Both the position numbers and the translations under genes were made by a program. From positions 1 through 45,052 of the forward strand of contig CAJAVE010000138.1 in assembly GCA_903945325.1 (NCBI GenBank): DNA of 45,052 nt, written 5' to 3'. The notes under the pieces are model-generated. The model worked only from the letters and a program-made list of their open reading frames with translations. It had not been told where the DNA came from and did no database searches. Origin of the DNA: an uncultured beta proteobacterium. GTDB lineage: Bacteria; Pseudomonadota; Gammaproteobacteria; Burkholderiales; Burkholderiaceae_C. This document shows, piece by piece, positions 5,877 to 41,173 of the stretch; position 1 is the first letter of the stretch, and each line of letters opens with the position of its first letter.

Positions 5877-6179
<303 letters not shown>

Positions 6180-6300
6180 GGCGCTCGGTCTGGTTGACGG
6201 TGTCTCGGCATTATTCAGCAATATCCGTGCCTCGCATGGTTGTTGCATACGCCAAATGCCAGATGTAGCTTTGCGCCCGCAGCGCGACATCACTATTGCT

Positions 6301-9300
6301 ATGGCATGGAATCTGCACCATGGTGGTGTGCTCACCGAACCCGATTTTCCGCCCCAGCCTGAAGCGCCTCCGCAACGCGTGGTGAAAATCCGGCGCGACT
6401 ACAACAACTGGGTGGCCAGCGAGACCATGGAAGACTACGCCCTGCGCTACACGCCGCAGCGGTTTCGCAAGTGGTCGGAGTGGCGGGTGGCCAACACCGC
6501 GTTTGGCGCAGCGTCGTTTCTGGTGTTGGAGGCCGTGGGTGCCACGCTGCTGGTGCAATACGGCTTTGTGAATGCCTTCTGGGCGATTCTGGTCACCGGG
6601 TTGGTGATCTTTCTGGCGGGGCTGCCCATCAGCGTGTACGCCTCGCGCTATGGGCTGGACATGGACCTGCTGACCCGGGGCGCGGGTTTTGGCTACATCG
6701 GCTCGACCATCACCTCGTTGATCTACGCATCCTTCACCTTCATATTCTTCGCGTTGGAGGCGGCCATCATGGCCTACGCGCTGGAGTTGGCGCTGGACAT
6801 ACCGCCCGCATGGGGCTACCTGATCTGTGCGCTGGTGGTGGTACCGCTGGTCACGCACGGGGTGTCGGTCATCAGTCGCCTGCAAATTTGGACCCAGCCG
6901 CTGTGGTTGGTGATGCTGGTGGTGCCATTTGTGTTCGTATTGGTGCGCAACCCGACGGCCTTTACGGGTATTTCGCACTACGGCGGTGAATTTGGGGTGG
7001 GTGGCGTGTTTGATGTGCACTTGTTTGGTGCTGCGCTGACCGTGGGTATTGCGCTCATCACCCAGATGGGCGAACAGGCGGATTACCTGCGTTTTATGCC
7101 AGAGCAAACCGCGCAGAACCGCAAACGCTGGTGGCTGTGTGTGCTGCTGGGCGGCCCGGGCTGGGTGGTGCTGGGCGTGGCCAAGATGCTGGGGGGTGCC
7201 TTGCTGGCCTACCTGGCCATTAGCCACAGCGTACCCACGGACCGCGCGGTGGACCCCAACCAGATGTACCTGGCGGCCTATGAATATGTGTTCCCGTCGC
7301 TGCAATGGGCGGTGGCGGCTACCGCGGTGTTTGTGGTGGTGTCGCAGCTCAAGATCAACGTCACCAATGCCTATGCCGGCTCGCTGGCCTGGAGCAACTT
7401 CTTTTCGCGCCTGACCCACAGCCACCCGGGGCGCGTGGTGTGGGTGCTGTTCAACACGCTGATTGCCTTCATGCTGATGGAGATGAATGTGTTCCAGGCG
7501 CTGGGTGATGTGCTGGGGCTGTACTCCAACATCGCCATTGCCTGGATCATGACCGTGGTGGCCGACTTGGTCATCAACAAGCCGCTGGGCCTGAGTCCCA
7601 AGGGTATCGAGTTCAAGCGGGCGCACCTGTACGACATCAACCCGGTAGGCGTGGGCTCCATGGCGCTGGCCTCGGCACTGTCGGTGGCGGCGTATCTGGG
7701 GACCTTTGGCGCGGACGTGAAGGCGTTTTCTGCGGTGGTGGCGCTGGTGACGGCTTTTGTTGCGGCCCCAGCTCTCGCGTGGGCTACCAAGGGCCGGTAC
7801 TACATCGCCAGAGGAAGCTCCGGGAGCCTGGGCGGTACAGCGTTTTGCGCAGGTCAAGGAGGAGACCGCGCAGCGGGCGGGGCTGAAATCCGCGGCTCCG
7901 AGCCTGCCAGCGCAGGCTTGGACGGATTGAAGAGCCGTAGCCTCTGGCTGAGGCACGACCACGGAGCAAAACGCTGTACCGCCCAGGCTCCAGCGCCAGC
8001 CGAATCGCCGACCGTTCAGCGGTGTGTGATCTGCGAGCGCGAATACGAAGGCCCCGACATGGCCCACTGCCCCGCCTACCGCGGCGCCATCTGCTCGCTG
8101 TGCTGCACGCTCGATGCGCGCTGTGGCGACCTGTGCAAGCCCCAGGCAGCGCTGTCCGCGCAGTGGTCGGTTGCCTTGCGCTGGTTGCTACCCAAACGGG
8201 TCTGGCCGTACCTGGACACCGGCCTGGGCCACTTCATCCTGCTCATGCTCATCATCGTGCCACTGCTGGCCACGGTTTTTGGCATGTTTTACCGGCAGGA
8301 ACTCTCCAGCTTGACCGAGGCGACCGGTGGCCAGCGCGCGCTGGAAGAGGCGCTTCGCTCGGGCTTCTTCAAAGCCTATATGGCATTGCTGCTGCTGGGC
8401 GGCATCGTGGCCTGGTGGCTGGTGCTGGCGCACAAAAGCCGCCAGGTGGCGCAGGAAGAGTCCAACCGCCAGACCCACTTGCTGGTGCAGGAAATTGAAT
8501 CGCACCGCCAGACCGATGAGGCCCTGCAGACCGCCACCGCCGCGGCGGAGCGCGCCAAGCTGCAGGCCGAGCAGGCCAACCACGCCAAGAGCCGATACAT
8601 CAGCGCCATCAGCCACGAGTTGCGCACGCCGCTCAACAGCATACTGGGTTATGCGCAGTTGATGGGGGAAGACACATCCATCCCGGCGCACCGCAAGCAG
8701 GCGGTCAGCGTCATCAAGCGCGGTGGCGAGCATTTGCTGTCGCTGATTGAGGGCACGCTGGACATGGCCCACATCGAGTCGGGCAAGCTCACGCTCAATG
8801 TCAAGCCCATGCAGTTTGCCAATGGCATGCACGAGATTGCCAGTCTGTTCGAACTGCAAGCCGCCGCCAAAGGGCTTGCTTTCAATTTTGAAGTGCAGGG
8901 CGCCATGCCCGAATGGGTGCGGGCCGACGAGAAGCGGGTGCGCCAGATCATCATCAACCTGCTGGGCAATGCCATCAAGTTCACCCAGCAGGGCAGCGTC
9001 ACCTTCAGGCTGCGCTATGCGCGCGAGATGGCGCAGGTGGAGGTGCACGACACCGGGCCCGGCATGCTTGCGACTGAGCTGGAACACATCTTCGACCCCT
9101 TTGCCCGCGCCGCCAGCGTGGGCGTTGGCGCGACCGGGTCCGGCCTGGGGCTCACCATCGCCAAGATGCTGACGGACTTGATGGGCGGTGAACTCACGGC
9201 CACCAGTCAGCTGGGGCAGGGCTCGGTGTTCCGGGTGCGCTTGTTTCTGCCCGAATTGCACGACCAGCCAGGGCAGTCGCGGCAACGGATGGCACCGCTG

Positions 9301-9990
9301 GTGCGCAAGCCGCGCGTGGGCTATGTGGGAACGCGTCGCAAGATTCTGGTGGTGGACAACGAGGAGGCGGATCGCGAGTTGCTGGTCAGCCTGCTGGAGC
9401 CGCTGGGTTTTGTGCTGCGCGTGGCAGCCAGTGGCCATGATGCACTGGATCTGCTGGCTGCGGGTTACGACCCTGATGTGGTATTGCTCGACCTGGCGAT
9501 GCCTGGCATCGATGGCTGGGAGACGCTGCGCCGCATCCGTGCACTGGCGGGGCGACAGCCGCAGGTGGCCATCGTTTCTGCCAATGCGTTTGAGCGGGGT
9601 GTGGACAACACACTGGGTATTGCGAGCGAAGACTTTATCGTCAAGCCGGTGCGCCACACCGAGCTACTGGACTGGCTGGAACGCAAGCTGGAGTTGACAT
9701 GGCTGGAGGCTCCTGTCATCCCTGTGGTCGCACCCGTTGCACGCCTTGCACCCGTTAGCGATTCCGCACCCAATGGCGTTGCGCCACCCGAAACTGACTT
9801 GCTGGCACTGCAGGAGCTGGTGCGCCTGGGCTTCTATCGGGGCATTAACAACAAGCTCGACGCCATCCTGGCAGCACACCCGGCCTGTGCCGGTTACGTG
9901 GAAACCATGCGCATCTTGGCCCGACAATTTCAGTTTGAGGCCATGCTGACCCAACTGCAAAAAGAACTGGATGGCAACCATGCCCGCTGA
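6301..9990 (+). CDS. NCS1-permease / Cys-cluster / hybrid histidine kinase fusion
   Basis: A 1229-residue multidomain membrane sensor, counted from ATG 6301. The frame is open from 6088, but the earlier part overlaps ureA. Domains: (a) about residues 55-497, a full NCS1 (Transp_cyt_pur: purine, cytosine, allantoin, hydantoin) permease with about 12 hydrophobic segments. (b) 508-564, a low-similarity linker encoded by a palindromic DNA element. (c) 575-612, a cluster of Cys (575, 578, 590, 598, 601, 602, 608, 612) that looks like a zinc- or redox-binding knuckle. (d) Two more membrane helices, about 645-667 and 690-712, then a coiled coil. (e) HisKA with SHELRTPLN (H772). (f) HATPase with NLLGNAIKF (N886) and [10 protein letters not shown]. 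(g) A receiver with DLAMPG (D1064) and VKPVR. (h) A helical tail. The permease part may transport, sense or both, much as the SLC5-like domain of CbrA does. It is divergent from ureA and overlaps its response regulator gene. The ligand is inferred, from context, to be a purine or ureide. Confidence 0.88.
7823..7991. repeat. Structured palindromic element inserted in frame in the sensor gene
   Basis: Two perfect 26-bp inverted arms (7823-7848 and 7966-7991) enclose 117 bp. Inside lie two further hairpins. The first has stem 7897-7907 with 7912-7922 (11 pairs, one G-U, loop cagc), extended by AATCCG/CGGATT at 7887-7892 and 7923-7928. The second is GCCTC-tggct-GAGGC at 7940-7954. The whole has a cloverleaf-like fold. 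It is read through in frame, giving a Gly/Ser/Ala/Arg-rich linker between the permease and the Cys cluster. It looks like an inserted mobile palindromic repeat, comparable in principle to Rickettsia palindromic elements. No other copy was noticed in this window. Confidence 0.75.
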
Positions 9991-11123: not shown

Positions 11124-13121
11124 ATGCAGAAAATTCTTTGGAAACAATGCCGTGTGGCCGGTGTTTGTGTGGCGCTGTTGGTCAGTGCGCTGCCCGCTCG
11201 AGCCGGTCTTTTTGACGACTTGCTGGAAAAAGGGGCGGAGCTGGTCAAGGGGGTGGGTAGTGTGCTGAACCAGGGGCCTAGCGAAGAGACCTTGCTGGCA
11301 CAAACCCCAGAGCAGCAAGACCAATCATTCATGGCTTTGCAAGAAGAAAAAGAATTCGACAAGCTGGTCAAACTCGCCACCGCGCTGCATGCCAAGGGCT
11401 CGGCAGCGGGCACGCATTTTCTCGGGCGTGCGTATCTTGACGGCAAAGGCATCGCACAAGACAAGGACAAGGGTTACAGCCTGATCAAGCAGGCGGCGCA
11501 GATGGGCGACATGCGCGCTCAGACAACACTGGCCGTGTTGTTTTTCCAGGGCAAGAAAGACGTCATGCCCGACAGCGCGCTGGGAATGCAGTATCTGACG
11601 GCCAGTGCCGAAAAATATGACGGGTCTGCCGAGTTGCTCGCACAGGTCTATGCCGAGGGCAAAAACGGCATTCCCAAAGACCGAGCCAAGGCACTGGACG
11701 TTTATAAAAACCACAAGTGGACCAACTCCACGCGCTGGCAAGCCAAGATCAAGCAGCTTGAGGCCCAGTTGCAGGCTATTCCGACCGTACCGGACTTTTT
11801 GGCACAAACCCCGCAGCAACAAGACACCTCGCTTGCGAACTTGTTGGCGCAAAACGACTACGCCATCGTGATGGAGCTGGCAAGTGCTGCAGCGGACACC
11901 GGGTCGCCTACCGGCAAGCTGTACCAAGCAATGGCTTACCTTTCGGGCAACGGAGCGGTGGTGAACAAGCCCAAAGGCCTGGCACTGCTCACTCAAGCGG
12001 CGGATGCCGGCGCAGCCCGCGCGCAGTTGCAGTTGGGCCGTCTTTTGATAACCGACCAAGATACCAGTGTGCGCAATGTTCCTGTGGGCATGGCGTATCT
12101 GGGGCGCTGTGTGCTTGAGTTTGGCGAAGCTGCCATGCTGTTGGCCGCAATCCACGAGAAAGGGGAGCACGGCCAGCCGGTTGACAAAGCCAAAGCACTG
12201 TCGGTGTACCAATTGGTCAGAGAACCGCAATATGCCAGCCAGGCGAAAACCAGGATCGCAGCGCTGGAATACGAGCTTAAGCCCGTCCCCACGGTGGACG
12301 ATCTGCTGGCCATGCCGACCGATAAGCAGTACAAGGAGCTCAGTGAGTTAAGGAGCAAGAAAAAATACGCTGAGGTGCTGAGTTTGGCGCAGGCGCTGCA
12401 TGAAAAGGGCGCATTTCCTGGTACCTTTTTTGTGGGATCGGCTCACTGGTTTGGCCGAGGCACGGTGGTCAATGAGCCTCTGGGCGCCGAGTATCTGGCC
12501 AAGGCTGCGGACGGCGGTATCCACGCGGCAGAGATGAATGCCGGGCGTGGTTTTCTGTTTGGCAAGTGGGGTTTTGCGCTGGACGAGGCACGTGGTCTGA
12601 AATACCTGCAGGCTTGCTACAAGTACTTTAACGATTGCGCCTATGACATAGCCCGTGCCCACGAAAACGGCATGGGCGGATTGCCCAAAGACAAAGCCAA
12701 AGCGCTTGCTATCTATAGAAACTACGGCTGGGCGTCCGATTTTGAGAACAACGCCATCATCGCCAAAAAAATCAAAGAACTCGATCCCAAACCACCGCAT
12801 GAAGATGTGTTCATCAAAGTCATGGAGGCCGCCAAAAGCGTTGGCGTGCGGGTGTCCAATGTGGGTACCTCCGGCAATGGCTACTTTGGCAGCGGCGTGT
12901 TGATGGTCAATGGCAGCATCAAGGTCGAATTTGAAACCGGGCTGGAAATTTATGACGGCATGAAGCCCAAACTGTGGATGACTTTTGCCTCCAGCGACCG
13001 ACGCGTGCATGACCCGTTGCGCAAGCGCATGATCGCGGCCTTGCGCGGCCAATTTGGCAGCTTCGACAGCACGTTTGACAGAAACAGCACCGTGTTCAAC
13101 CCGGACTGGGTCAACCTGTGA
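11124..13121 (+). CDS. Secreted Sel1-repeat protein
   Basis: A 665-residue protein built from Sel1-like (SLR/TPR-type) helical repeats, recognisable by recurring LGRAYLDGKGIAQDKDKGY-like units and GxxG-x-DxAKAL patterns in three blocks. Each block is preceded by a similar spacer (FLAQTPQQQ, LLAMPTDKQ). The start at 11124 is chosen because GGAGG lies 5 bases upstream and it opens a clean signal peptide (MQKILWKQCR, hydrophobic stretch, cleavage after ARA). The last 80 residues, after PPHEDVF, are a different, probably beta-rich domain. Sel1 proteins usually act as protein-interaction scaffolds; the partner is unknown. Its stop overlaps the GTG start of the next Sel1 gene, so the two are coupled. 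Confidence 0.82.
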   Translation: MQKILWKQCRVAGVCVALLVSALPARAGLFDDLLEKGAELVKGVGSVLNQGPSEETLLAQTPEQQDQSFMALQEEKEFDKLVKLATALHAKGSAAGTHFLGRAYLDGKGIAQDKDKGYSLIKQAAQMGDMRAQTTLAVLFFQGKKDVMPDSALGMQYLTASAEKYDGSAELLAQVYAEGKNGIPKDRAKALDVYKNHKWTNSTRWQAKIKQLEAQLQAIPTVPDFLAQTPQQQDTSLANLLAQNDYAIVMELASAAADTGSPTGKLYQAMAYLSGNGAVVNKPKGLALLTQAADAGAARAQLQLGRLLITDQDTSVRNVPVGMAYLGRCVLEFGEAAMLLAAIHEKGEHGQPVDKAKALSVYQLVREPQYASQAKTRIAALEYELKPVPTVDDLLAMPTDKQYKELSELRSKKKYAEVLSLAQALHEKGAFPGTFFVGSAHWFGRGTVVNEPLGAEYLAKAADGGIHAAEMNAGRGFLFGKWGFALDEARGLKYLQACYKYFNDCAYDIARAHENGMGGLPKDKAKALAIYRNYGWASDFENNAIIAKKIKELDPKPPHEDVFIKVMEAAKSVGVRVSNVGTSGNGYFGSGVLMVNGSIKVEFETGLEIYDGMKPKLWMTFASSDRRVHDPLRKRMIAALRGQFGSFDSTFDRNSTVFNPDWVNL

Positions 13122-14773
13122 CACCGGCGCGCAACACCTTTGCCCTGAGCGCTTTGTGGCTGGCCTGCGCCAGCAGCCATGCCTGGAATGCAGCCGATGA
13201 CGAGCGCAACCGCCAGCGCGGTATGGCCCAAATGCGCGCCAACGCAGCCCAGTTTGAGCAGAACAGTGCGCGCAATTTGCAAAATGCGCAGCGCGATTGG
13301 GCGCGCAACAGCGCCTCCGCACGGGTTGGCTCGTCCAGCAGCTACCAAAGCAGCAGTTCGCCACCCGCTTACAACGCCGTAGGTCAATTGGGTGACACGC
13401 TGCGCAGTATTGGCGACCGCATGAACAAGCCTGAGGTTTTGAGCATCAAGCTCAAAGCCGAGACAGATGTCGATGTGCTGGAGCGTTTCAAAGCCGCAGC
13501 ACAGGAGGGCAATTCGGTCTCTTCCGTGTGGGTGGGCCAGATGTATTACTCGGGCTACGGCACCCAGCGTGACGATGTACAGGCCGCCCAGTGGTTCAAG
13601 AAGGCCGCGGCGCAGGGCAACCCTGATGGGGCCTATCACTACGGCTACATGCGGATGTACGGGCATGGCGTGGCGGTTGACCCGGCGGACGCGGTGAGTT
13701 GGTTCAAACGCGCGGCGGACGGGGGCAGCGCAAGGGGCGAGTTGAGCTATGCCACCGCTTTAATTTCTGGCAGTGGCATCGCCCGTAACGAAGCTCTGGC
13801 CGTACCCCTGATGAAAAGCCTGGTGGCGCGCAACATGCAGTTCAGCAGCGACCCCGATATCAAAGAGTCACAGGCACTGATGGCCGGTTTGCTGGGGGAT
13901 TTTTACCGCAGTGGAACCGGGGTGGGCAAGGACATGGTGGAGGCGGTCCGCTGGTACTCACTGGCGGCTGAGCGTGGCGACCGGTTTGCGGCGCGTGACC
14001 TGGCAAAAATGTATTACCAGGGGGACGGCGTCGGCAAAGACTTCAAGCAGTTTTTGGCCTGGACCGCCAAGGCCGCCGAACTGGGCCACCCCGAGGCGCA
14101 GGCCAATCTGGGGCTGATGCTGGTGCAGGGCAAAGACCTGCCAAAAGACGAGTCAACTGGCGTGAAGCTGGTGCAAAGCGCCGCCGCGCAAGGCGATGGT
14201 TTTGCGTGGTCGCTGGTGGGTAATTTTCACCAGGATGGTCGGTTGGTCAAAAGTCCATCCAAAGCGGCCGAGGCCTATCGCCAGTCCGTGGCCAAAGGCT
14301 ATCCGCAGGCGCGTTTCTACCTTACCCCGGCTTTGCTGCGAACGGCCCGCATTGCACCGGATGCCAGCGCGCTGGCGCAGGACCAGAAGGATGCGCAATC
14401 CGGCAATGTGGAGGCCATGTTGCGTGTGGCGGATCGTTACGCAGACGGTATTGGCACCGCAGAAAATCTGGCGCAAGCCCTGGTTTGGTACGAGAAAGCA
14501 GCCAGCCACGGCCATGCGGTCGCCCGAGGCATGCAGGGGTTGCTCCTGGTGACCGGCCAGGCGGGCACCAAAGATGTCAAAAAAGGGATTGAGCTGACCG
14601 AGGGTGCTGCAGCGGCTGGCGATGCAGGGGCCTTGTTCACCATGGGCCAGCTGTACTCCAATGGCTTTTTTGGGGAAAGCAATGCAAAGGCACAGGCCAT
14701 TGGGTGGCACAAAAAGGCCCTGGCCGCAGGCCATGCAGGCGCTGAAGAGGCGCTCTCCAGCCTATTGCCATAG
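13118..14773 (+). CDS. Second secreted Sel1-repeat protein
   Basis: A 551-residue Sel1-repeat protein starting with GTG that overlaps the previous stop (GTGA). It begins with a signal peptide ending near SSHA, then a Gln/Asn/Arg-rich helical stretch and a Ser-rich linker (about residues 20-85). Many classic Sel1 repeats follow from about residue 115 on, for example VWVGQMYYSGYGTQRDD, QAAQWFKKAAAQGN and KMYYQGDGVGKDFKQ. Repeats continue to the C-terminus. It is translationally coupled to the upstream Sel1 gene and likely works in the same envelope complex. The gene next to it on the other strand is convergent. Confidence 0.85.
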   Translation: MTPARNTFALSALWLACASSHAWNAADDERNRQRGMAQMRANAAQFEQNSARNLQNAQRDWARNSASARVGSSSSYQSSSSPPAYNAVGQLGDTLRSIGDRMNKPEVLSIKLKAETDVDVLERFKAAAQEGNSVSSVWVGQMYYSGYGTQRDDVQAAQWFKKAAAQGNPDGAYHYGYMRMYGHGVAVDPADAVSWFKRAADGGSARGELSYATALISGSGIARNEALAVPLMKSLVARNMQFSSDPDIKESQALMAGLLGDFYRSGTGVGKDMVEAVRWYSLAAERGDRFAARDLAKMYYQGDGVGKDFKQFLAWTAKAAELGHPEAQANLGLMLVQGKDLPKDESTGVKLVQSAAAQGDGFAWSLVGNFHQDGRLVKSPSKAAEAYRQSVAKGYPQARFYLTPALLRTARIAPDASALAQDQKDAQSGNVEAMLRVADRYADGIGTAENLAQALVWYEKAASHGHAVARGMQGLLLVTGQAGTKDVKKGIELTEGAAAAGDAGALFTMGQLYSNGFFGESNAKAQAIGWHKKALAAGHAGAEEALSSLLP

Positions 14774-14781
14774 GCCTCTCG

Positions 14782-14806
14782 CGCCACCGTCGCGTGGCGG
14801 TTTCCT
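14782..14806. terminator. Hairpin between convergent genes
   Basis: The stem CGCCAC/GTGGCG (14782-14787 with 14794-14799, loop CGTCGC) lies in the 31-bp gap between the plus-strand Sel1 gene and the minus-strand secreted-protein gene. It is followed on the plus strand by a short T-rich run (14801-14810). It may serve as a terminator for the Sel1 pair; the T-run is weak. Confidence 0.45.
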
Positions 14807-15800
14807 AATTCTTCTTCAGGCCCTGCGCCAATACTTCGGCCACCATTTTCAAGTCCGTAGAGACCATCTCGCGGTAGTTATCGGCAACGGTCACTTCGAA
14901 ATTGCTGATGGAGCCGGAGGAGCCTCCGGCAATCGCATTGAATATCAGCAGCGCGGTTTGGCCGCCGCTTCGACCCACATCCACTACTTTGGAGCCGATC
15001 TGGCTTGGCAAAACCACTTCCTGGCGAAACTGGAATTGCTTGATGGAGCCGTCGTCACCCATCACCATGAACATGCTTTGTGGCGAAAGGGATAGCTTCA
15101 CTCCGTGCGCCACTTCGGCGCTGCGATAGCTGCCTGAGTTCGCCAGTTTTGCGAACCCAATAATCAAATTGGCGTGAATGGTGGTTGCGCCCAGCGCTTT
15201 GGCCAGCGCAGCGCCTTTGCTGTAGCCGGTCATGGTGAAAGTGTCTGCCGTCCCCTTGCTGAGGATGGTCGTGCCACTGTTATTTGCCATGGCTTTGACC
15301 ATTGCGCCAGACTCCTGTGGGCCGACGGTTTCTTCAACCAGCTTGCGAAATTCTTCATTGGCCAGAACTTTGTCCTGTCCGATCACAGAGTAGCCGCGTG
15401 CTGCCAATGCCGTTGCGAAATTGGTCGCGAAGTCGTCGGCCACCGCCTGCATGGTTTCTGGCGTAAGGCCAAGCAATTTGTAGTTGACGTCCACTGTGGC
15501 ACCCTTGTTGCCACTGGTGGAGCTGGCACTGGTATCGGTGATGAACTTCAGCATGACGGTGGCCATGGCGAGTGGTCGCACGGGGCCCTCATAGGGCTTG
15601 TTTTGGTCCCTCGCCATCATGTTTTCATTCAGAAAGAGGGTGCTGAATGCAGTGGCACGGTCCGTTGTGGCTTCCAGAATGATGGGCTGGGGCGCCTTGT
15701 CGAAGAGGCCGGCATGGGCTTGTGAAGCAAGCAGAAGGCAGGCCGCAATGAGCACCCGCCCCTGCTTAGGCATTTTGATTTCAGTCGTTCGGGTACGCAT
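14805..15800 (-). CDS. Secreted protein of unknown function
   Basis: A 331-residue protein starting MRTRTTEIK. The start is chosen because GGAG sits 8-9 bases upstream; the frame is open to 15872. It has a signal peptide with cleavage after QAHA, so the mature protein begins GLFDKAPQP. Motif-like features include two Gly/Ser-rich hydrophobic stretches (GYSKGAALAKALGATTIHA and a short GGSSGS loop near 280-300) and an alternating pattern suggesting beta structure. I do not recognise the family. It lies 151 bp downstream of the Ser/Thr kinase gene on the same strand and converges on the Sel1 pair, so an envelope role connected with the kinase is plausible but unproven. Confidence 0.7.
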   Translation of the reverse strand: MRTRTTEIKMPKQGRVLIAACLLLASQAHAGLFDKAPQPIILEATTDRATAFSTLFLNENMMARDQNKPYEGPVRPLAMATVMLKFITDTSASSTSGNKGATVDVNYKLLGLTPETMQAVADDFATNFATALAARGYSVIGQDKVLANEEFRKLVEETVGPQESGAMVKAMANNSGTTILSKGTADTFTMTGYSKGAALAKALGATTIHANLIIGFAKLANSGSYRSAEVAHGVKLSLSPQSMFMVMGDDGSIKQFQFRQEVVLPSQIGSKVVDVGRSGGQTALLIFNAIAGGSSGSISNFEVTVADNYREMVSTDLKMVAEVLAQGLKKN

Positions 15801-15951
15801 GGTTGTATCTCCAAAAAAGACAAAGGTGACGGGTGTGGCCCGAAAGGGACACGGACGCTGCGGCTCACGCAAACCATGAACCTCACTTGGTGATACGGCG
15901 ATCTACGAAGCCAAAAGGCTCAAACCGACAAAAAATACTGAACTGGCAGCT

Positions 15952-18606
15952 TTAGCTCAGTGTTTGCATCCAGGCGCGATGTTCTCCGGCCAGGGGCGCA
16001 ATTGCAGCGGCTGCATCCAGGGCCGAGCGCGCGCGACTCTTCCACTCGGTGACGTCCACACCTTTGGAGGCTTCTGCCATCGCCATGGCCAGTTGGGCCT
16101 GAACCAGGTAGCCTGCACGTTGCTGGTAGGCGTTGTGGGGCGGGGGCTGGTACGCACGGAAGGCTGCGCTAGCGGTGGCGCGGGCACCTTGCTGCAGTCC
16201 CAGGGCTTGCATGGCCTGCGCACGCTCAGCCTGCATCCACGCGACGCCACGCAAGGCTTCCTGGTTGGTCGACGCGGTCGCCGCCATTCTTTGCCAATAG
16301 GAAAGAGCCATTTCCAGCACGGGCAAAGCCGCAGCGGGTTGACCGGCGCGGCGTAGGGCGCGGCCGTGGTGGGTAGCGAGCAGGGGCGCCCTTCGCGTCC
16401 AGTTGTTGTCAACGGTTGCGGCATGCTCCGCTTGCAGTTGCCGGTTCAAGTCCCAGGCTGCTGTTGTGGCTGCCAACGCGGCGTCATGGCGCTGCAGGCG
16501 CAACAAAATGCGCCCCAAGTTGGTGGACTCGGTGACCAGTGCATCGCGGTATTCGACGTCCTGAGGCAAGGCCTTGACCGAGGCATGGCGCGCTGCCATG
16601 GCCAGTTCCGCGGCCCTTAAAGCGGGCTCCAGAGCATCGCGTGCCTCGTGCACGATAGCGGTCTGGCCATCGACGGAGCCCAGCAAATACGTGATCTCCG
16701 GGTCGGGGTGCAGGGTGTCCAATTCCATCAACTCTGTACGCGCGGCCTTTAGTTCTGCCAACGCTTCGTCAGGGCGGTCCAGGTGCAGCATGCCCGGCTT
16801 GTAGAGCAGTTGGCTGAGGAAATGGCGGGACCGGGCCCGCTCCACGCGCAAGGCGATGGTTGCGTCGTCGCGCTTTTCACGTTCAGACAGGGCGATGCCG
16901 CGGCCCATCAAGGGCCCCACTTCAGTCATGGTTTGAAGGGCCTCTTGTGCTTGACCATTGGCGCGCTGTAAGCGGGCGCGGGTACCCAATGCACGCCAGT
17001 ACCAGATCAGGAAATTGGCGTCGGGCAGTTTTTCTTCCATGACGCTTCGCGCCAACTCCAGCGCACGGTCGGCATGGCGCTGGCCCGCCTCGGCGCGGTT
17101 CAGTGCAGCCGAGTTTTCATTGAATTCCACATCGGCGAGCCTTGCGTAGGCCTGTGCAGCATCGGCAATCAGGTCCGGGTCGTCTCCACTGGTTGCGACC
17201 AGTTTGTCCAGCACGCTCGTTAATTGCTTGAGCAAGTCCGCCTTGATGGCCATGCCGCCGGGGACGTAGGTCACCGCATCGCCAAACCGGAACACCGCTT
17301 CACGCGTGAGCACCTTGATGCTGGCAAGGCGGCTTCGTGCCTGATTCGCCTGCCAGGTGGATACCGCAATGCCGAGCACCAGCGATGCCAATAGGCCAGC
17401 GGCAAGAGCGGTCACCAGTCGATGCCTTCGAATGAGCTTGGTGGTCAGGTAGGTCAGTGTCGGCGTGCGCGCGCTCACCGGCATGCCGTTCAGGTAGTTG
17501 CGGATGTCTTGCGCCAGCGCCTCGACACTGGAGTAGCGGCGTTCCACGGATTTCTCCAGCGCCATGAGCAAAATATTGTCCAGGTCGCCTTTCAGGTGCT
17601 TGCGTGTGGCCAGCCAATGGGGGTCAGTCACCAGGTCCGGGCTCAGGTTGCTGGGCCGGGTGGGCTCTTCCTCCAGCACGCTGCGCGCCATCTCGGCGGG
17701 AGTGGTCGCGTTGCGCCCGGTTGGGCGCAGGCCGGTGAGCATTTGGTACAGCAGTACCCCCAGCGAGTAGATGTCGGTTGCCGTGTTGATTGCATCCCCT
17801 CGCACTTGTTCCGGGCTGGCGTACTGCGGGGTGAAGGGCCGGTGCGTGCCCAGCGTTGTGTCCTGCAGCGAGTCTGCGGCTGCCGCGAGCGGGTCCAGGG
17901 CTTTGGCGATACCGAAGTCAAGCAGTTTGACTTGACCCTGTAGCGTGACCAGCACATTGCCGGGTTTGAGGTCGCGGTGCACCACCAGGTTTTTGTGGGC
18001 ATATGCCACGGCATCGGCGAGTTGCAGAAAAAACGCCAGCCGCTGTTCGATGGGCAGACCGGTAGAGGCTTCGTCAATCGGGCGGCCATCCACATACTCC
18101 ATGACGAAATACGGCAGGCCGTCTGCGCTGAGCCCCGCGTCCAGCAGGGTGGCAATGTGTGGGTGGTTCAGGCGCGCCAGGGCTTGGCGTTCCAACGAAA
18201 AACGCTGCAAGATGGCAGCACTGTCCAGCCCGCGCTTGAGTATTTTGAGCGCTGCCCGGCCGATGTAGTTGCCATCGGCGCGGGTGGCTTCAAAGACGTC
18301 ACCCATGCCCCCAGCACCCAGCGGGCGCACAATTTGCCAAGGCCCTAGCCGGTCGCCAATGCGGTCTGACCCATCGGGCAATGCCAGGGAGGCTACCTGG
18401 TCCAAAAGAGCGGCTGCCTTCGTGTGGCCTGCGTCTTGCTCCAGATCAAAGGCCAGCAAGGAGCGGACTTCGGAGCGGACGGATTCATCGACCTCTGCAG
18501 CAGCAATGAATACCTCTCTTTCAGAAGCGCTCAGCGGCGAGGCGTGTTCATAAAGATGCTTGGCCAGCGCCCAGGATTGTGGAGAAAGAGGGGGCTTGTT
18601 GGGCAT
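15952..18606 (-). CDS. Transmembrane PknB-type Ser/Thr protein kinase with TPR-like C-domain
   Basis: An 884-residue Hanks-type kinase. An N-terminal helical region (1-85) precedes the kinase domain (about 88-375): glycine loop GAGGMGDV at 98-105, catalytic Lys121 in AALK, HRDLKPGN at 210-217, DFG at 230-232 and SPEQ at 264-267. All catalytic residues are intact. One membrane helix follows (about 397-418). The remaining 460 residues are helical with TPR-like periodicity, probably periplasmic. The start is 32 bp from the divergent ECF sigma factor gene. Kinases of this type paired with ECF43-like sigma factors are known to switch the sigma factor on by phosphorylation (PknT/EcfP in Vibrio, PknS/EcfK in Xanthomonas), so the same is inferred here. 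Confidence 0.9.
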   Translation of the reverse strand: MPNKPPLSPQSWALAKHLYEHASPLSASEREVFIAAAEVDESVRSEVRSLLAFDLEQDAGHTKAAALLDQVASLALPDGSDRIGDRLGPWQIVRPLGAGGMGDVFEATRADGNYIGRAALKILKRGLDSAAILQRFSLERQALARLNHPHIATLLDAGLSADGLPYFVMEYVDGRPIDEASTGLPIEQRLAFFLQLADAVAYAHKNLVVHRDLKPGNVLVTLQGQVKLLDFGIAKALDPLAAAADSLQDTTLGTHRPFTPQYASPEQVRGDAINTATDIYSLGVLLYQMLTGLRPTGRNATTPAEMARSVLEEEPTRPSNLSPDLVTDPHWLATRKHLKGDLDNILLMALEKSVERRYSSVEALAQDIRNYLNGMPVSARTPTLTYLTTKLIRRHRLVTALAAGLLASLVLGIAVSTWQANQARSRLASIKVLTREAVFRFGDAVTYVPGGMAIKADLLKQLTSVLDKLVATSGDDPDLIADAAQAYARLADVEFNENSAALNRAEAGQRHADRALELARSVMEEKLPDANFLIWYWRALGTRARLQRANGQAQEALQTMTEVGPLMGRGIALSEREKRDDATIALRVERARSRHFLSQLLYKPGMLHLDRPDEALAELKAARTELMELDTLHPDPEITYLLGSVDGQTAIVHEARDALEPALRAAELAMAARHASVKALPQDVEYRDALVTESTNLGRILLRLQRHDAALAATTAAWDLNRQLQAEHAATVDNNWTRRAPLLATHHGRALRRAGQPAAALPVLEMALSYWQRMAATASTNQEALRGVAWMQAERAQAMQALGLQQGARATASAAFRAYQPPPHNAYQQRAGYLVQAQLAMAMAEASKGVDVTEWKSRARSALDAAAAIAPLAGEHRAWMQTLS

Positions 18607-18638
18607 AGCCTTGATTCTGGCATGGTAAGGTTGCTCCC

Positions 18639-19214
18639 ATGACTGACCCGCTTCACGACATCACCGGTTGGCTCGCTTCCGCGGGCCAGCAGGGTGCCCC
18701 GCATGGCGCAGAAGTAGGTAAAGAGTTGTTTCAGTGGTTGTACGACGATTTGCTGCGCATGGCACGCGGCCAAATGCGCAAAGAGCATGCCGCCCACACC
18801 CTGAGTGCCACGGCGCTGACCCATGAAGCCTGGTTTCGAATGAACGAGCAAACGCGCACCCAGTGGGCGAACAGGTCCCATTTTCTGGCAGTGGCATCCA
18901 CCGTGATGCGAAGAATTTTGGTGCACCATGCGGTGGCCAAGCAAGCGCAAAAACGCGATGCCGACCTGGTGTCGCTGACGTTGGCCGAGCACCAGCCCTC
19001 CGAGGCAATCGGCAACGACCTGGTTTCCGTGCATGAGGCCTTGCTGGCGTTTGAGGCGATAGACCCCCGTGCCGCCCGGGTGGTGGAGCTGAAGTTTTTT
19101 GGTGGAATGGAAAACACAGAAATTGCCGAGGCACTGGACATTTCTCTCGCCACTGTCAAACGCGAGTGGAGCGTTGCGCGCGCATGGTTGCTACGCGAAT
19201 TGAGCGTTGGTTAG
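18639..19214 (+). CDS. ECF-type sigma factor (ECF43/TIGR02999-like)
   Basis: A 191-residue extracytoplasmic-function sigma factor. Region 2 spans about 25-100 with LYDDLLRMARGQMRKE, ALTHEAWFRM and a NRSHFLAVASTVMRRILV segment. Region 4 spans about 135-188 with VVELKFFGGMENTEIAEAL and SLATVKREWSVARAWL. These match the group often found beside Hanks-type kinases. No anti-sigma factor gene is adjacent. Instead the divergent kinase gene starts 32 bp away, suggesting activation by phosphorylation of a Thr in region 2 (T54, T58 or T61 are candidates; inference). Probable targets are the envelope genes nearby. Confidence 0.88.
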   Translation: MTDPLHDITGWLASAGQQGAPHGAEVGKELFQWLYDDLLRMARGQMRKEHAAHTLSATALTHEAWFRMNEQTRTQWANRSHFLAVASTVMRRILVHHAVAKQAQKRDADLVSLTLAEHQPSEAIGNDLVSVHEALLAFEAIDPRAARVVELKFFGGMENTEIAEALDISLATVKREWSVARAWLLRELSVG

Positions 19215-22042: not shown

Positions 22043-23281
22043 TCACCGTGATGCGCTGGTGGTCGTGTGAGCAACGTATTTGATTTCGCCCATCAAAATG
22101 CCGATGGCACCCTTGAGCAAAATCGTCAGGATGAAGAATCCCATGGCCCAATTGCCCAGGCTCATCACCACCTCAATGAAGGTGGGGTAGTACTCGGTCA
22201 CTTCGCCAATCGGGGTGGGGATGAAGCCGGGAACGATCAGGCCCATGCCCTTTTCGATCCAGATGCCGACAAATGCGAGCACGCAGGCGATGGGCAGCAG
22301 TTTGTAATTGGTGCGCACGCTGGGGATCAGGAACATCACGAAGGCGATGACCATGAAAGCCAGTGAACTCCAGAACCATGGCACCAGTGCAGTCAGGCCA
22401 TGCAGGCCGAACATCAGGTAATACAGGCCGTTGGCATGCTCGGTCCGTGCATACAGTTCGACCACGATTTCAGACATGGTCAGGAACAGCGCAAGGCCCA
22501 GGCACCAGGTGACGATGGTCGACAGCAGATTGATGGCGCTGTCCTGGATCCACATCTTGGTGTTCTTGCGGATGTACATGAAGGCCAGGATGATCAGACA
22601 CGGCCCTGCCGCGAACGCCGTGGTGATGAAGCGGATCGGCATCATGCTGTGGTACCACATGGGGCGTGCCGGCATCGTGGATATCAAAAAGGCTGTGACG
22701 GTGTGGATACTCAACGCCCAGACGATAGAGGTGTACACCAGCGGCATGAAGTACTTGTTGTTCACCTGGGTGCCGGTGTACTTCGCATACAGGTAGTAAA
22801 AACCGCACATGAAATTGAGTACCAGATACCCGTTGAGCGCCAGTACGTCCCACGCAAGCATGGAGCCCGGCATGTTGAAAATGCCAATAAAGGGCAACAT
22901 GTGCCACAGCCGGTCAGGGCGACCCATGTGGGCAAAGACGAACAGCATAACCATGATCACGGCTGAAATCGCCAGCATTTCGCCCAGCACCGTCACTTCA
23001 TGCATGGCCTTGTGGTGGTACACGTAAGCCGGGAAGACAATGGTCACCGCACCGGCGGCCACGCCCACCAGAAACACCAGATTGGCGAAGTACAGGCCGT
23101 CGTGGATCTGGCTGGTCATGCCGGTGACGATCAGGCCCTCGGTGTTTTGCAGATAGAAGGCGTACAGTGCCCCCGCGCTCAGCAGGGCCAGAAAGCCCAT
23201 CCATGCGTAGAACTTGGTCCCGCCCTTGAGTACGTAGCGGGTGTAGTCGGTGGTGAATTGAATCAGTTTTTCCACAATCAT
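22043..23281 (-). CDS. NrfD/PsrC/DsrP-family integral membrane protein
   Basis: A roughly 412-residue polytopic protein with about 10 hydrophobic segments, of the NrfD/PsrC family that exchanges electrons between menaquinol or ubiquinol and a partner Fe-S protein. Typical features include the VFPAYVYHHKAMHEVTVLGE region and GFYYLYAKYTGTQVNNKYF. The start is uncertain. ATG 23281 has GAGGAG only one base away, while the in-frame GTG at 23275 has ideal spacing to it. It follows the Fe-S gene by 5 bp. DsrP is the closest analogue in size. The gene set is complete for electron transfer but lacks a known terminal enzyme. Confidence 0.88.
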   Translation of the reverse strand: MIVEKLIQFTTDYTRYVLKGGTKFYAWMGFLALLSAGALYAFYLQNTEGLIVTGMTSQIHDGLYFANLVFLVGVAAGAVTIVFPAYVYHHKAMHEVTVLGEMLAISAVIMVMLFVFAHMGRPDRLWHMLPFIGIFNMPGSMLAWDVLALNGYLVLNFMCGFYYLYAKYTGTQVNNKYFMPLVYTSIVWALSIHTVTAFLISTMPARPMWYHSMMPIRFITTAFAAGPCLIILAFMYIRKNTKMWIQDSAINLLSTIVTWCLGLALFLTMSEIVVELYARTEHANGLYYLMFGLHGLTALVPWFWSSLAFMVIAFVMFLIPSVRTNYKLLPIACVLAFVGIWIEKGMGLIVPGFIPTPIGEVTEYYPTFIEVVMSLGNWAMGFFILTILLKGAIGILMGEIKYVAHTTTSASR

Positions 23282-23286
23282 GCTCC

Positions 23287-24378
23287 TCAATCGTAGAAGT
23301 AAAAAAACTTCGGAAACGTGTTGAGTTCGGCTTTGAGTCGAAACACGTTTTTGCGGGCCAGAATCAGGCTCACCTCACTTTCGGGGTCAAGCAAATTGCC
23401 GAACTTGCGCGCGCCCACCGGGCAAACTTCAACGCATGCCGGGTACCGCCCCTGGCGTGTGCGTTGCAGACACCAGTGGCACTTTTCAACCACGCCCCTC
23501 ATGCGTGGGCGGTTACCCATGTAGTGTGTGACCGGGTTCATTTCTTCCTTGGGAAGGATAGGGGTGGTCAGGTTGATGCGCCTTGCCCAGTAGGGGCAGG
23601 CGCCCATGCACATGCGACAGCCAATGCACCAGTTGTAGTCAATCACCACCGGGCCATCGGCCTCCCGGTAAGTTGTTCGCACCGGGCATACCTTGACGCA
23701 GGGTGGCTTCTCGCACTGCATGCAGGCGATTGGCATGTAGTTAGCATCCTTTTCCGGAACGGCTTCGGGTTCATAGTGGTACTGGCCCTCCAGAACCTGG
23801 CCAGCCGGTGTGTAAGCATTGCCACCGACCTGAATGCCGAGGCCTTCCGGGTAGCCCTGATTCATCTTGTCCCCCGAAAACCCCCCGCGTTCCATCCGGA
23901 GCACCTGTATCCATTCGATGCGCTGGCCGGGTTCTTCTCCGCGGGTCTGGTTGTTTTCTTCGACGCAGGCCTTGACGCAACGGCGGCAACCGATGCATTT
24001 GCGGATGTTCAGGGCATACCCCATCAGTACGCCTGGCAAAGCCTCGGTGGTGTCGACCGTCACTTTTTTTCCGTATTGCGCCGAATAGCGTCGCTCCAGT
24101 CGTGCGCGTGACTCTGCCTTTTCTTCAGGGCTCATCAGCCGGTAATTCTTCTGGAAGTGCTCGGCCCATTCGACGGTGGCTTTCGGATCGTCGGTCTGCG
24201 CCATCAGCGCAGCCGCGCCCATCAGCGAGGACACGCTGACCACACCAGTAGCCGCCAAAAAGTTGCGGCGTGACGTGGGCGGGGATGACGCGAACGGCAC
24301 TGCTGGCTCGGGGCACGCCGAACAGGGAGGCGTTGCGTCCGGGTTTGAATCAGGCGTCGGGCTATTGTTCGAATTCAC
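23287..24378 (-). CDS. Tat-exported 4Fe-4S ferredoxin-type electron-transfer protein
   Basis: A 363-residue periplasmic Fe-S protein of the NrfC/HybA/DsrO type. The GTG start at 24378 is used because GGAG lies 8 bases upstream. An in-frame ATG at 24504 exists, but the FNR-like box lies inside that extension. The N-terminus has a Tat signal TSRRNFLAATG (about 36-46), placing it outside the inner membrane. Cysteine clusters follow: CIGCRRCVKAC, CMQCEKPPCVKVCP, CIGCRMCMGACP and CHWC...CVEVCP, enough for four [4Fe-4S] clusters. It is the first gene of the minus-strand run continuing to the NrfD protein and cytochrome, and should pass electrons between them. Confidence 0.9.
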   Translation of the reverse strand: MNSNNSPTPDSNPDATPPCSACPEPAVPFASSPPTSRRNFLAATGVVSVSSLMGAAALMAQTDDPKATVEWAEHFQKNYRLMSPEEKAESRARLERRYSAQYGKKVTVDTTEALPGVLMGYALNIRKCIGCRRCVKACVEENNQTRGEEPGQRIEWIQVLRMERGGFSGDKMNQGYPEGLGIQVGGNAYTPAGQVLEGQYHYEPEAVPEKDANYMPIACMQCEKPPCVKVCPVRTTYREADGPVVIDYNWCIGCRMCMGACPYWARRINLTTPILPKEEMNPVTHYMGNRPRMRGVVEKCHWCLQRTRQGRYPACVEVCPVGARKFGNLLDPESEVSLILARKNVFRLKAELNTFPKFFYFYD

Positions 24379-24447
24379 GGTGGTTCTCCAGTTGTGGGGC
24401 ACGGCAAAGCATTGGCGGCCATGGTAGAACCCAGCGCAAATTGTGGT

Positions 24448-24461
24448 GTGATATGGATCAA
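24448..24461 (-). promoter_or_regulatory. FNR/Anr-like box upstream of the Fe-S/NrfD/cytochrome operon
   Basis: On the minus strand the site reads TTGAT-CCAT-ATCAC, nine of ten matches to the FNR consensus TTGAT-N4-ATCAA. Its centre lies about 77 bp before the GTG start at 24378. A plausible -10 hexamer TACCAT (24426-24421) sits where a class II FNR promoter would have it, with the box centred near -41.5. This implies induction under low oxygen, in keeping with the encoded redox proteins. Confidence 0.55.
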
Positions 24462-24577
24462 CTTTGCACCGATTTTCGGTGAGTGAACTCTGTAAAACCC
24501 GCAACAGTTGCTGACAAGTCTCGCAAATTTTTCCTGGCAGAGGTGCTTGTAATGACTGTGTAAGAACTACAGCGCAA

Positions 24578-26474: not shown

Positions 26475-26507
26475 CTGCTCACGGAGCAGAGTACGCCACT
26501 CGGCGTA
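26475..26507. promoter_or_regulatory. Two adjacent dyads upstream of urtA
   Basis: CTGCTC-acg-GAGCAG (26475-26480 and 26484-26489) is followed 2 bp later by TACGCC-actc-GGCGTA (26492-26497 and 26502-26507). Both are perfect 6-bp arms in the 179-bp divergent spacer between the M48 peptidase and urtA. They could be regulator sites for the urea transporter or hairpins in the leader. I could not assign a regulator, and no convincing sigma-54/NtrC site was seen. Confidence 0.35.
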
Positions 26508-26619
26508 TTTCACATCCCCCTGTCCTTCCCTAAAGTCAAGCCATCGTTGCGCAAAATCTGTCTGAGTGGGCGGTTCGCGCAGCGAAGCTGGTTTTCTTTA
26601 ACTTCGGAAGGTCACATCC

Positions 26620-27891
26620 ATGCAACGCACCAATTCACGTCGATTTACGCTGAAGGCACTCACTGCTGCCGTCGCTCTCACCACGCTGTCCGCCGTGCCA
26701 GCGTTTGCCGCCGACACCATCAAGGTCGGCATTTTGCACAGCCTCTCGGGCACCATGGCCATTTCGGAAACCGTGTTGAAAGACACCGTACTCATGGCCA
26801 TTGATGAAATCAACGCCAAGGGCGGCGTGCTGGGCAAAAAGCTCGAACCCGTGGTGGTGGACCCCGCCTCCAACTGGCCGCTGTTCGCCGAAAAGACCAA
26901 GCAGTTGCTGGGCCAGGACAAGGTCTCGGTGATCTTCGGCTGCTGGACTTCGGTCTCGCGCAAGTCGGTGTTGCCCGTCGTGGAAGAAATGAACGGTCTG
27001 TTGTTCTACCCCGTGCAGTACGAGGGTGAAGAGCTGTCCAAGAACGTGTTCTACACCGGTGCTGCACCGAATCAGCAAGCCATTCCGGCCGTCGATTATT
27101 TGATGAGCAAAGAAGGCGGCGGCGCCAAGCGTTGGGTCCTGCTGGGAACCGACTATGTCTACCCCCGCACCACCAACAAGATCCTGCGCGCCTACCTGAA
27201 GAGCAAGGGCGTTGCCGACAAGGACATCGACGAAAAGTACACACCGTTTGGTCACTCCGATTACCAGACCATCGTGGCTGACGTGAAGAAGTTTGCCGCC
27301 GGTGGCAAGACTGCCGTGGTGTCCACCATCAATGGTGACTCCAACGTGCCGTTCTACAAAGAGCTGGGCAATGCCGGCTTGAAGGCCAAGGACGTGCCCG
27401 TCGTCGCCTTCTCCGTGGGTGAAGAAGAGCTGCGCGGTGTTGACACCAAGCCGCTGGTGGGCCACTTGGCTGCATGGAATTACTTCATGAGCATCAAGAA
27501 CCCCGACAACACGGCCTTCATCAAGAAGTGGTCGGATTACGCCAAGGCCAAGAAGCTGCCCGGCTCCGACAAGCCTTTGACCAACGACCCGATGGAAGCC
27601 ACCTACATCGGTATCAACATGTGGAAGCAGGCGGTGGAAAAGGCCAAATCCACCGATACCGACAAGGTCATCGCTGCGATGGCCGGCCAGACCTTCAAGG
27701 CACCCAGCGGCATCGTGAGCAAGATGGATGAAAAGAACCACCATTTGCACAAGTCGGTGTTCATCGGCGAAGTGAAGGCCGACGGCCAGTTCAACGTGGT
27801 GTGGAAGACACCTGGTCCTGTGAAGGCCAAGCCATGGTCTCCGTTCATCGAAGGCAATGACAAGAAGCCTGACGAGCCCGTCGCGAAATAG
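26620..27891 (+). CDS. urtA: Urea ABC transporter substrate-binding protein UrtA
   Basis: The periplasmic urea-binding protein of the Urt ABC importer. The 423-residue precursor has a signal peptide (QRTNSRRFTLKALTAAV, cleavage after PAFA) and the mature start DTIKVGILHSLSGTMAISE. Family-typical segments follow: FGCWTSVSRKSVLPVVEE, GLLFYPVQYEGEE, TGAAPNQQAIPA and GTDYVYPRTTN. This bilobed fold also binds short-chain amides. GGAAGG lies about 8 bases upstream of the start. It is the first gene of urtABCDE, and an 80-bp gap with a possible mRNA hairpin follows. Confidence 0.97.
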   Translation: MQRTNSRRFTLKALTAAVALTTLSAVPAFAADTIKVGILHSLSGTMAISETVLKDTVLMAIDEINAKGGVLGKKLEPVVVDPASNWPLFAEKTKQLLGQDKVSVIFGCWTSVSRKSVLPVVEEMNGLLFYPVQYEGEELSKNVFYTGAAPNQQAIPAVDYLMSKEGGGAKRWVLLGTDYVYPRTTNKILRAYLKSKGVADKDIDEKYTPFGHSDYQTIVADVKKFAAGGKTAVVSTINGDSNVPFYKELGNAGLKAKDVPVVAFSVGEEELRGVDTKPLVGHLAAWNYFMSIKNPDNTAFIKKWSDYAKAKKLPGSDKPLTNDPMEATYIGINMWKQAVEKAKSTDTDKVIAAMAGQTFKAPSGIVSKMDEKNHHLHKSVFIGEVKADGQFNVVWKTPGPVKAKPWSPFIEGNDKKPDEPVAK

Positions 27892-36342: not shown

Positions 36343-36417
36343 CTTTCAGTCTCCTCGTAGCCTTTTTAAGGCGGTTTTTAGTAAAAAGAGGTCCATTGCG
36401 GGACTAGCCCGACTTGC

Positions 36418-37641: not shown

Positions 37642-37675
37642 GGTGGGCGGCGTGATGGAAAGAGGGCAGGGCGAA

Positions 37676-39487: not shown

Positions 39488-39493
39488 GGCGGT

Positions 39494-41103: not shown

Positions 41104-41122
41104 GATAGCTGCAATCCAAAAT

Positions 41123-41134
41123 AGTGTATACACT
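41123..41134. promoter_or_regulatory. Palindromic operator between gntR and uraH
   Basis: A perfect 12-bp palindrome AGTGTATACACT sits in the 70-bp spacer between the divergent gntR and uraH starts. Palindromes centred on GTATAC are typical binding sites for FCD-type GntR regulators, so this is very likely the autoregulatory site controlling both directions. Only one full copy was seen. Confidence 0.6.
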
Positions 41135-41173
41135 TTGCCAAAACCCACTGAAAACCACGCAAAGGAAACCCAC

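Follow-up and report, generated by a model that had tools for sequence, protein, structure and literature searches.

What would a sensor kinase perceive if its input domain were built like a nutrient permease, and which genes would it serve? This question is raised by a gene at 6301..9990 (+ strand) of a 45,052-nt stretch of DNA from an uncultured beta proteobacterium (contig CAJAVE010000138.1), which we call the window, meaning the whole stretch that holds the kinase gene. In a single open frame of 1229 amino acids, counted from an ATG at 6301, the gene joins a permease domain, a finger of eight cysteines (Cys8), a predicted pair of membrane helices (2TM), and a hybrid histidine kinase. An earlier reading made from the letters alone (the sequence-only reading below) had proposed a sensor of a purine, allantoin, hydantoin, or cytosine that tunes nitrogen release. 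The tie to nitrogen release held up, but a purine-type ligand fits neither the neighboring genes nor the residues Phe149 and Leu252. We consider it probable, though some way from settled, that the gene encodes an NCS1-derived transceptor kinase, which would sense urea and/or short-chain amides and activate uptake genes through a LuxR-type regulator.

A permease joined to a hybrid histidine kinase

The joining of permease and kinase in one frame, as first read, is real. Same-genus orthologues L022 (79% identity) and L023 (78%) are single proteins over query residues 16-1227, and a frameshift or chimaera is therefore unlikely; a frameshift splitting the gene was among the points that the sequence-only reading said would refute it. 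The frame is open throughout 6301..9990, but its start probably lies at GTG 6328 rather than ATG 6301, because the latter abuts a sigma54-type site (6302-6316) and the orthologues align poorly before about residue 27.

Pfam identifies a HisKA dimerization/phospho-acceptor domain (8584..8784, residues 762-828; PF00512, E 4e-16), a HATPase_c domain (8926..9249, residues 876-983; PF02518, E 2e-25), and a receiver domain (9343..9675, residues 1015-1125; PF00072, E 7e-20), all on the + strand, which together make a hybrid histidine kinase. The C-terminal tail that follows (9718..9987, +) has no Pfam match at E ≤ 0.01. Upstream of the kinase core, after the cysteines, the structure model shows two long helices, a predicted membrane pair (8221..8457, +; residues ~641-719, the helices at ~641-675 and ~679-719). 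The gene for the cognate LuxR-type response regulator, P0002 (9971..10990, +), begins before the kinase stop at 9990, giving a 20-bp overlap; Pfam finds in it a receiver (REC) and a GerE helix-turn-helix, the composition of LuxR/NarL response regulators. The sequence-only reading had described the kinase with its receiver, the extra helices, and the overlapping regulator correctly.

The permease domain (6385..7815, +; residues 29-505) has the NCS1 fold in an AF2 model and fold search, with full-length profile homology to an 11-sequence NCS1 profile (hhalign, E 2.3e-17). The Pfam family PF02133 (Transp_cyt_pur) gave no match at E ≤ 1 for the kinase protein or nine members of set A1 and none at E ≤ 10 in the kinase's own genome. 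NCBIfam had no match to residues 29-505 at E ≤ 0.01, and sequence searches of Pfam, PDB, and NCBIfam with the permease returned nothing convincing (for two of them, among the best 25 of 153 and the best 60 of 287 matches). Among kinase-less relatives, L166 (48% identity over the permease) does match PF02133 at 31.8 bits (cut-off 23.5), and the L155 permease has no match to it.

In CodB, Trp108 and Phe204 form the nucleobase sandwich and Thr278 is a Na2 sodium ligand, as excerpts of PMC9379551 describe. The equivalents here are Phe149 (F in 61/68 and L in 7/68 aligned sequences), Leu252, and Lys351 (7351..7353, +; invariant in 68/68), and CodB T279 corresponds to Ile352. The stacking aromatics and Na2 threonines given for NCS1 in the same excerpts are replaced, and we therefore class the domain as NCS1-derived and not as an NCS1 transporter. 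The label "NCS1" is right as remote homology only: descent from NCS1 stood, but the complete purine/allantoin-type permease that had been read here did not. Along with K351, residues E153, N353, T355, and N356 are invariant in 68/68 sequences. Across ten full-length clade A orthologues, identity is 87-95% in the permease and 68-93% in the kinase core (87-90% and 68-80% without the closest one), and this better conservation of the permease fits a role as the specific input.

Urea and amide genes around the family

Reference neighbors were identified by NCBIfam as UrtA, UrtB, UrtC, UrtE, formamidase, FmdB, UreA, UreC, UreG, or aliphatic amidase. In the phylum sample, where the family occurs in 65/397 genomes (E ≤ 1e-15; own genome included), all 72 matches were examined to about 9 kb in both directions, and the window to about 20 kb where its urt genes are concerned. 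Genes of the urt, fmdA, amiE, or urease type lie near 68 of these 72 loci, window included (urt 60, fmdA 40, amiE 20, urease 17), and a match to the window's LuxR-type regulator is likewise present in 68/72. For comparison, the rough random expectation for urtA within 9 kb of a gene is about 0.1%. The class sample, in which 14/276 genomes carry the family (E ≤ 1e-60; own genome included; one of the 14 with a kinase-less form only), has urtA in 10/14 family genomes vs 58/262 others (P = 2e-4).

A scan of species genomes confirmed at least 567 relatives; 80 of them were examined, and these include Burkholderiales, Pseudomonas, Rhodocyclales, Methylophilaceae, Bradyrhizobium, cyanobacteria, and Polyangium. 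A urea/amide marker accompanies 69 of the 80 at the phylum thresholds. When the window, L028, 21 same-genus/order loci, and the 80 species-scan loci were clustered (103 loci), the regulator was found in 89, UrtA in 64, FmdA in 35, and UreA in 29; urt/fmd/ure genes were not found in 14/103, with the proviso that the UrtE cluster may include other ABC ATPases. Among 185 scanned loci, 90 kinase genes are divergent from urtA and 32 from ureA. The window has the ureA-divergent layout, with ureA at 5877..6179 (-; its product starts MELTPREK and clusters with the urease gamma reference) and the predicted target urtA about 20 kb downstream (26620..27891, +; TIGR03407), from which more urt genes follow to ~32225.

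The window also holds, at 34855-41352, a xanthine/uracil permease, an M20 peptidase, a UraD-allantoate amidohydrolase fusion, PuuE, and a GntR-type regulator.

Homologues of these purine genes are rare in the other 71 phylum loci (PuuE 0, UraD-AllC 1, M20 0, xanthine/uracil permease 0), and the purine operon beside this kinase looks like a local coincidence. The conserved link to purine and urea genes that had been expected across genomes thus exists for urea (68/72 in the phylum sample, though 8/16 in the class sample) and not for purines (1/71).

The prominence of urt genes invites a different view of the input, in which the true input would not be the permease pocket: the kinase would read UrtA, or some other periplasmic binding protein, docked with its ligand on the permease-like scaffold, or else Urt flux. 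We think this unlikely, though it is the alternative we would take most seriously. It draws on urtA being both the commonest neighbor and the commonest operator-bearing gene, but L199, L200, L220, and L155 stand with urease, fmdA, or amiE and show no urtA in the stretch read, and the invariance of E153, K351, N353, T355, and N356 also speaks against it.

A palindrome upstream of urtA

De novo motif discovery in 82 dereplicated kinase-urtA gaps returned ATACGTCA-N2-TGACGTAT (log-likelihood 832 vs 31 shuffled). The general form of the palindrome is TACGTCA-N2-TGACGTA, and that of the window's clade is TACGCC-N4-GGCGTA; within four mismatches the motif discovered in the gaps occurs in 68/82 of them vs 10/1640 shuffles. 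The general form finds nothing in the window at three mismatches. The top-scoring site of the 45 kb is the palindromic operator GTACGCCACTCGGCGTAT upstream of urtA (26491..26508), at 14.7 bits (best of five shuffles, 12.9). Over the 4.69-Mb genome the degenerate consensus has a single match, at this urtA, and the reversed control pattern has 7. In the clade, sites of 9.4-17.5 bits stand at about -97 to -144 of urtA in nine loci from eight genomes (L053-L056, L129, L135, L149, L217, L227).

The palindrome and the kinase family occur together. Sites of at least 12 bits are present in 51/57 phylum urtA upstream regions vs 0/32 from family-free genomes (Fisher P = 2e-18) and in 0/8 unlinked urtA genes of kinase genomes; with at most one mismatch to the consensus, the counts are 50/57, 0/32, and 1/8. 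That one is G151, which belongs to the window's family: its kinase and urtA are about 100 kb apart, and urtA carries GTACGCCACCCGGCGTAC at 9.4 bits, below the 12-bit threshold. Across 68 phylum loci (1.29 Mb) we counted 63 sites of at least 14 bits, 50 of them upstream of urtA, nine of fmdA, and four of the kinase (shuffles, 2). When 32 loci, most of them lacking urtA, were checked singly, a strong site close to the kinase was seen in L243, L161, and L155 (there in the amidase gap), and most of the rest had none. The training of the operator matrix did not include the fmdA sites, L155, or L161.

Sigma54-type sites and proposed general nitrogen control

The window's ureA-kinase gap, under 150 bp, has promoter-like sites of sigma54 type facing both genes: GGCACGGATATTGC toward ureA (6218..6231, -) and TGGCATGGAATCTGC toward the kinase (6302..6316, +). 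Both recur in ureA-divergent gaps. GGCAY-N5-TTGC, which we take to be the sigma54 promoter form, faces ureA in 21/30 such gaps (0.02 expected), and looser sites face the kinase in 22/30 of them (0.9 in shuffles) and in 21/82 urtA gaps (1.65 expected). Because such sites flank the ureA-kinase gap on both sides, we propose control in two layers: nitrogen status would set ureA and kinase expression through sigma54 as a response to general limitation, and the kinase with its regulator would add substrate specificity. That the regulator acts directly on urease was also considered; the sigma54-type site at ureA weakens this idea.

Conceivably, the palindrome belongs to some other regulator, for instance a general nitrogen regulator, and the kinase merely adjoins it. 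We infer the pairing of the LuxR-type regulator with the palindrome, the sigma54-type sites point to general control by nitrogen in the ureA-kinase gap, and the palindrome is missing at 7/8 unlinked urtA genes in kinase genomes, a fact that counts against our own proposal as well. Even so, we hold this alternative to be improbable: the palindrome is at 0/32 urtA upstream regions where the genome lacks the kinase family, and it also stands upstream of the kinase beside a permease-amidase set (L155) or without visible urt (L161, a 5.7-kb contig).

The eight-cysteine finger

Between permease and helices lies C-x2-C-x11-C-x7-C-x2-CC-x5-C-x3-C (8023..8136, +; residues 575-612), in which the model places short strands and then a helix (pLDDT 69-81), with weak zinc-finger matches only. 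The candidate class is the treble-clef/RING-like zinc finger, which has two four-Cys metal sites in a beta-hairpin/helix fold. The eight clustered cysteines that the sequence-only reading had pointed out (C575, C578, C590, C598, C601, C602, C608, C612) are invariant in 68/68 aligned sequences, and their spacing is identical in 182/182 family open reading frames of at least 600 aa (near-duplicates and repeated genomes included). The notion of a knuckle made for the kinase fared worse, as L155 has all eight without a kinase. L166 keeps only two C-x2-C pairs, and this pattern of loss suggests two four-Cys sites, C575/C578/C598/C601 and C590/C602/C608/C612, in which the finger presumably holds metal.

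Eight cysteines in 38 residues with unvarying spacing could also make the finger itself the sensor, of zinc, nickel, or redox, and reduce the permease to an anchor. This seems quite improbable to us, since L155 with all eight cysteines and L166 with two pairs behave as expected of structural metal sites, and the recurrent neighbors are urea/amide genes (metal or redox neighbors were not searched for).

Weighing the proposed circuit

In the circuit that we propose, the permease-like domain would act as a receptor with a kept pocket and bind the solute, urea or an amide. The Cys8 finger and the two extra helices would relay ligand-driven movement of the permease to the HisKA/HATPase module, phosphate would pass to the overlapping LuxR-type regulator, and the regulator would bind the palindrome upstream of urtA and raise urea/amide uptake. 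Formamidase, amidase, or urease genes stand alongside. The older idea, of a sensor that tunes nitrogen release after its NCS1-type domain has bound a nucleobase or ureide, can be recommended by remote NCS1 homology and the purine-ureide operon in the window, but it is very improbable given purine-gene homologues near 1/71 other phylum loci, Phe149/Leu252 in the aromatic sandwich positions, and urea/amide genes near 68/72 phylum loci.

Several observations weigh against the urea/amide circuit. The first concern gene linkage. No marker was found in phylum-sample loci L202 and L221 or on short contigs L249 and L264, and only 8/16 class-sample regions (window included) have one; those without are L153, L154, L158, L160, L161, L163, L164, and L165. 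Five of them (L153, L158, L160, L161, L163) have under 4 kb or 6 kb readable on one side, and L158 is some 10 kb away from L157, which is urt-linked; L154, L164, and L165 have no marker despite at least 5.9 kb on both sides. Markers were likewise not found for 11/80 species-scan relatives (L091, L095, L115, L116, L117, L126, L130, L133, L144, L146, L147) or, in the same-genus/order set, for L069, L070, and the 3-kb contig L028. Finally, urtA is absent from 4/14 class-sample family genomes.

Further points concern regulation and signaling. The window's ureA-kinase gap contains a decayed operator copy, ATACGCCAAATGCCAGAT (6247..6264), whose 6.8 bits are not above chance for the window; better copies occupy the same place in orthologues L217, L140, L108, and L243. 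Many unlinked members have no outstanding operator near the kinase, and the kinase-urtA gaps used to train the operator matrix come partly from the tested loci. Sigma54-type sites face urtA in 0/82 gaps, and the promoter-like site of ureA is of sigma54 type, which would not be driven directly by a LuxR-type regulator. Lys351 is also present in kinase-less relatives and therefore marks the permease clade, not signaling. A phosphotransfer domain to connect receiver and regulator was not found, and with a receiver in the kinase more than one phosphate route is conceivable. Taken as it stands, the regulon is well supported in most, not all, family members, and urea or amides are its predicted ligand.

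Modular forms of the family

The permease-finger-helix unit is also joined to receiver-less kinases (L199, L200, L091, L116, L144, L117, L087). Once, at L164:7352-11020, it is fused to PAS-GGDEF-EAL, with no urea/amide gene within about 9 kb; this fusion may feed cyclic-di-GMP signaling. Two kinase-less forms sit among relevant genes: L166:9092-10711 in a ureD-A-B-C..G cluster, and L155:10812-12407 adjoining genes that resemble those for formamidase and AmiE, where the gap carries an operator. They may be urea/amide transporters with a C-terminal Cys finger. A distant stand-alone relative, L197 (G489:C40; 29% identity), has Arg for the lysine, and a urtA-like gene is some 3 kb away. L095, L115, L130, L133, L146, and L147 (mostly Rhodocyclaceae-type) consist of kinase and regulator with no urt/fmd/ami/ure gene within about 10 kb.

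To a wider picture we give somewhat less than an even chance. In it, a widespread and so far unrecognized NCS1-derived permease clade with a C-terminal two-metal Cys8 finger would be specialized for urea and short-chain amides, some members being transporters in urease/amidase operons and most having turned into transceptors once joined to a hybrid kinase, a plain kinase, or GGDEF-EAL. With a Na-site lysine like that of CbrA, two transporter families would have become proton-tuned receptors alike.

Other features of the window

Residues ~508-563 of the linker are encoded by a 169-bp palindromic dispersed element (7823..7991, +) with perfect 26-bp inverted ends and a DNA hairpin z of -9.7. It keeps the frame and contributes cysteines 516 and 559, outside the conserved eight. 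BLAST gives 47 matches to it in its own genome (itself and its two arms included), three near full length. Five genomes of the same genus have 12-46 each, and G043 has none. Orthologues of other species have a shorter form at the same linker position, with the core in two orientations, and L058-L062 have no element there. Rickettsia palindromic elements are comparable in-frame palindromic repeats.

Elsewhere, ureD (33992-34822) stands apart from ureABC, after the urt genes, and adjoins a receiver-TPR protein (32222-33907). At 13118-19214, a Sel1-repeat protein, a Ser/Thr protein kinase, and an ECF-type sigma factor are close together, and at 22043-26440 an NrfD-like membrane protein and a DsrO-like iron-sulfur protein adjoin an M48 peptidase gene.

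Relation to known systems and significance

The SLC5-STAC kinases CbrA, CrbS-MxtR, and RpuS likewise fuse a transporter-fold domain to a histidine kinase, and the comparison with CbrA drawn by the sequence-only reading is apt. Excerpts of PMC9603970, PMC5715377, and PMC9100948 give CrbS/MxtR/EmaS a LuxR-type partner, and an excerpt of PMC13022988 places K196 of CbrA in the Na2 site, a lysine there being common to CbrA and, as Lys351, to the present protein. The CbrA group has SLC5 and a STAC linker and is linked to histidine, acetate, or pyruvate, whereas the present family has an NCS1-derived domain, an eight-Cys finger, and two helices and is linked to urea/amide genes. Pfam reported no STAC domain in the kinase protein (the STAC profile was not compared directly). 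Unlike CodB and Mhp1, the present kinase has no PF02133 match, has Phe149, Leu252, Lys351, and Ile352 in place of the aromatics and sodium-ligand threonines, and adds a C-terminal Cys finger.

The ammonium transporter-histidine kinase of Kuenenia, in the account excerpted from PMC5764959, also uses a nitrogen-nutrient transporter fold as the kinase receptor. It differs in its ammonium transporter fold and its ligand. We know of no Cys finger in that protein. Similar by description is operon III of Ectopseudomonas guguanensis G3, for which excerpts of PMC13296017 list urtABCDE, a LuxR regulator, and a hybrid histidine kinase, with fmdA adjacent by locus number. A genome figure labels the kinase simply as hybrid, and the excerpts mention no permease domain, ligand, or operator; the resemblance to family loci is one of gene description, not of sequence comparison.

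Two identities were set aside. The kinase part has an NCBIfam NahK/ErcS-family match, which brings in ErcS/PedS1 of alcohol-oxidation clusters, but PedS1 is called a soluble hybrid kinase in an excerpt of PMC12997753, a table of which nevertheless predicts a membrane location. EmaS, with 13 TM and a PAS domain (excerpt of PMC9603970), and MxtR, which is of CrbS type, are analogues only.

Among the matches listed from open-access literature (for example 20 of 197 and 12 of 116), no paper dealt with a permease-fused kinase for urea or amides; a gene pair of this kind appears in the genome figure of PMC13296017. Transporter-kinase fusions are already known (CbrA, CrbS, the Kuenenia sensor), and the NCS1-derived form linked to urea and amides is a new variant. 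Known urea/amide regulators such as UreR and AmiC/AmiR work by other means, and a receptor kinase in the membrane that responds to urea or small amides would, if true, fill a regulatory gap. As the family usually lies beside a ready promoter-operator target, ligand, regulator, and regulon can be tested together. It would also supply, besides SLC5, a second scaffold for studying how transporters turn into receptors, and it draws attention to relatives with no kinase, which may be permeases for urea or amides.

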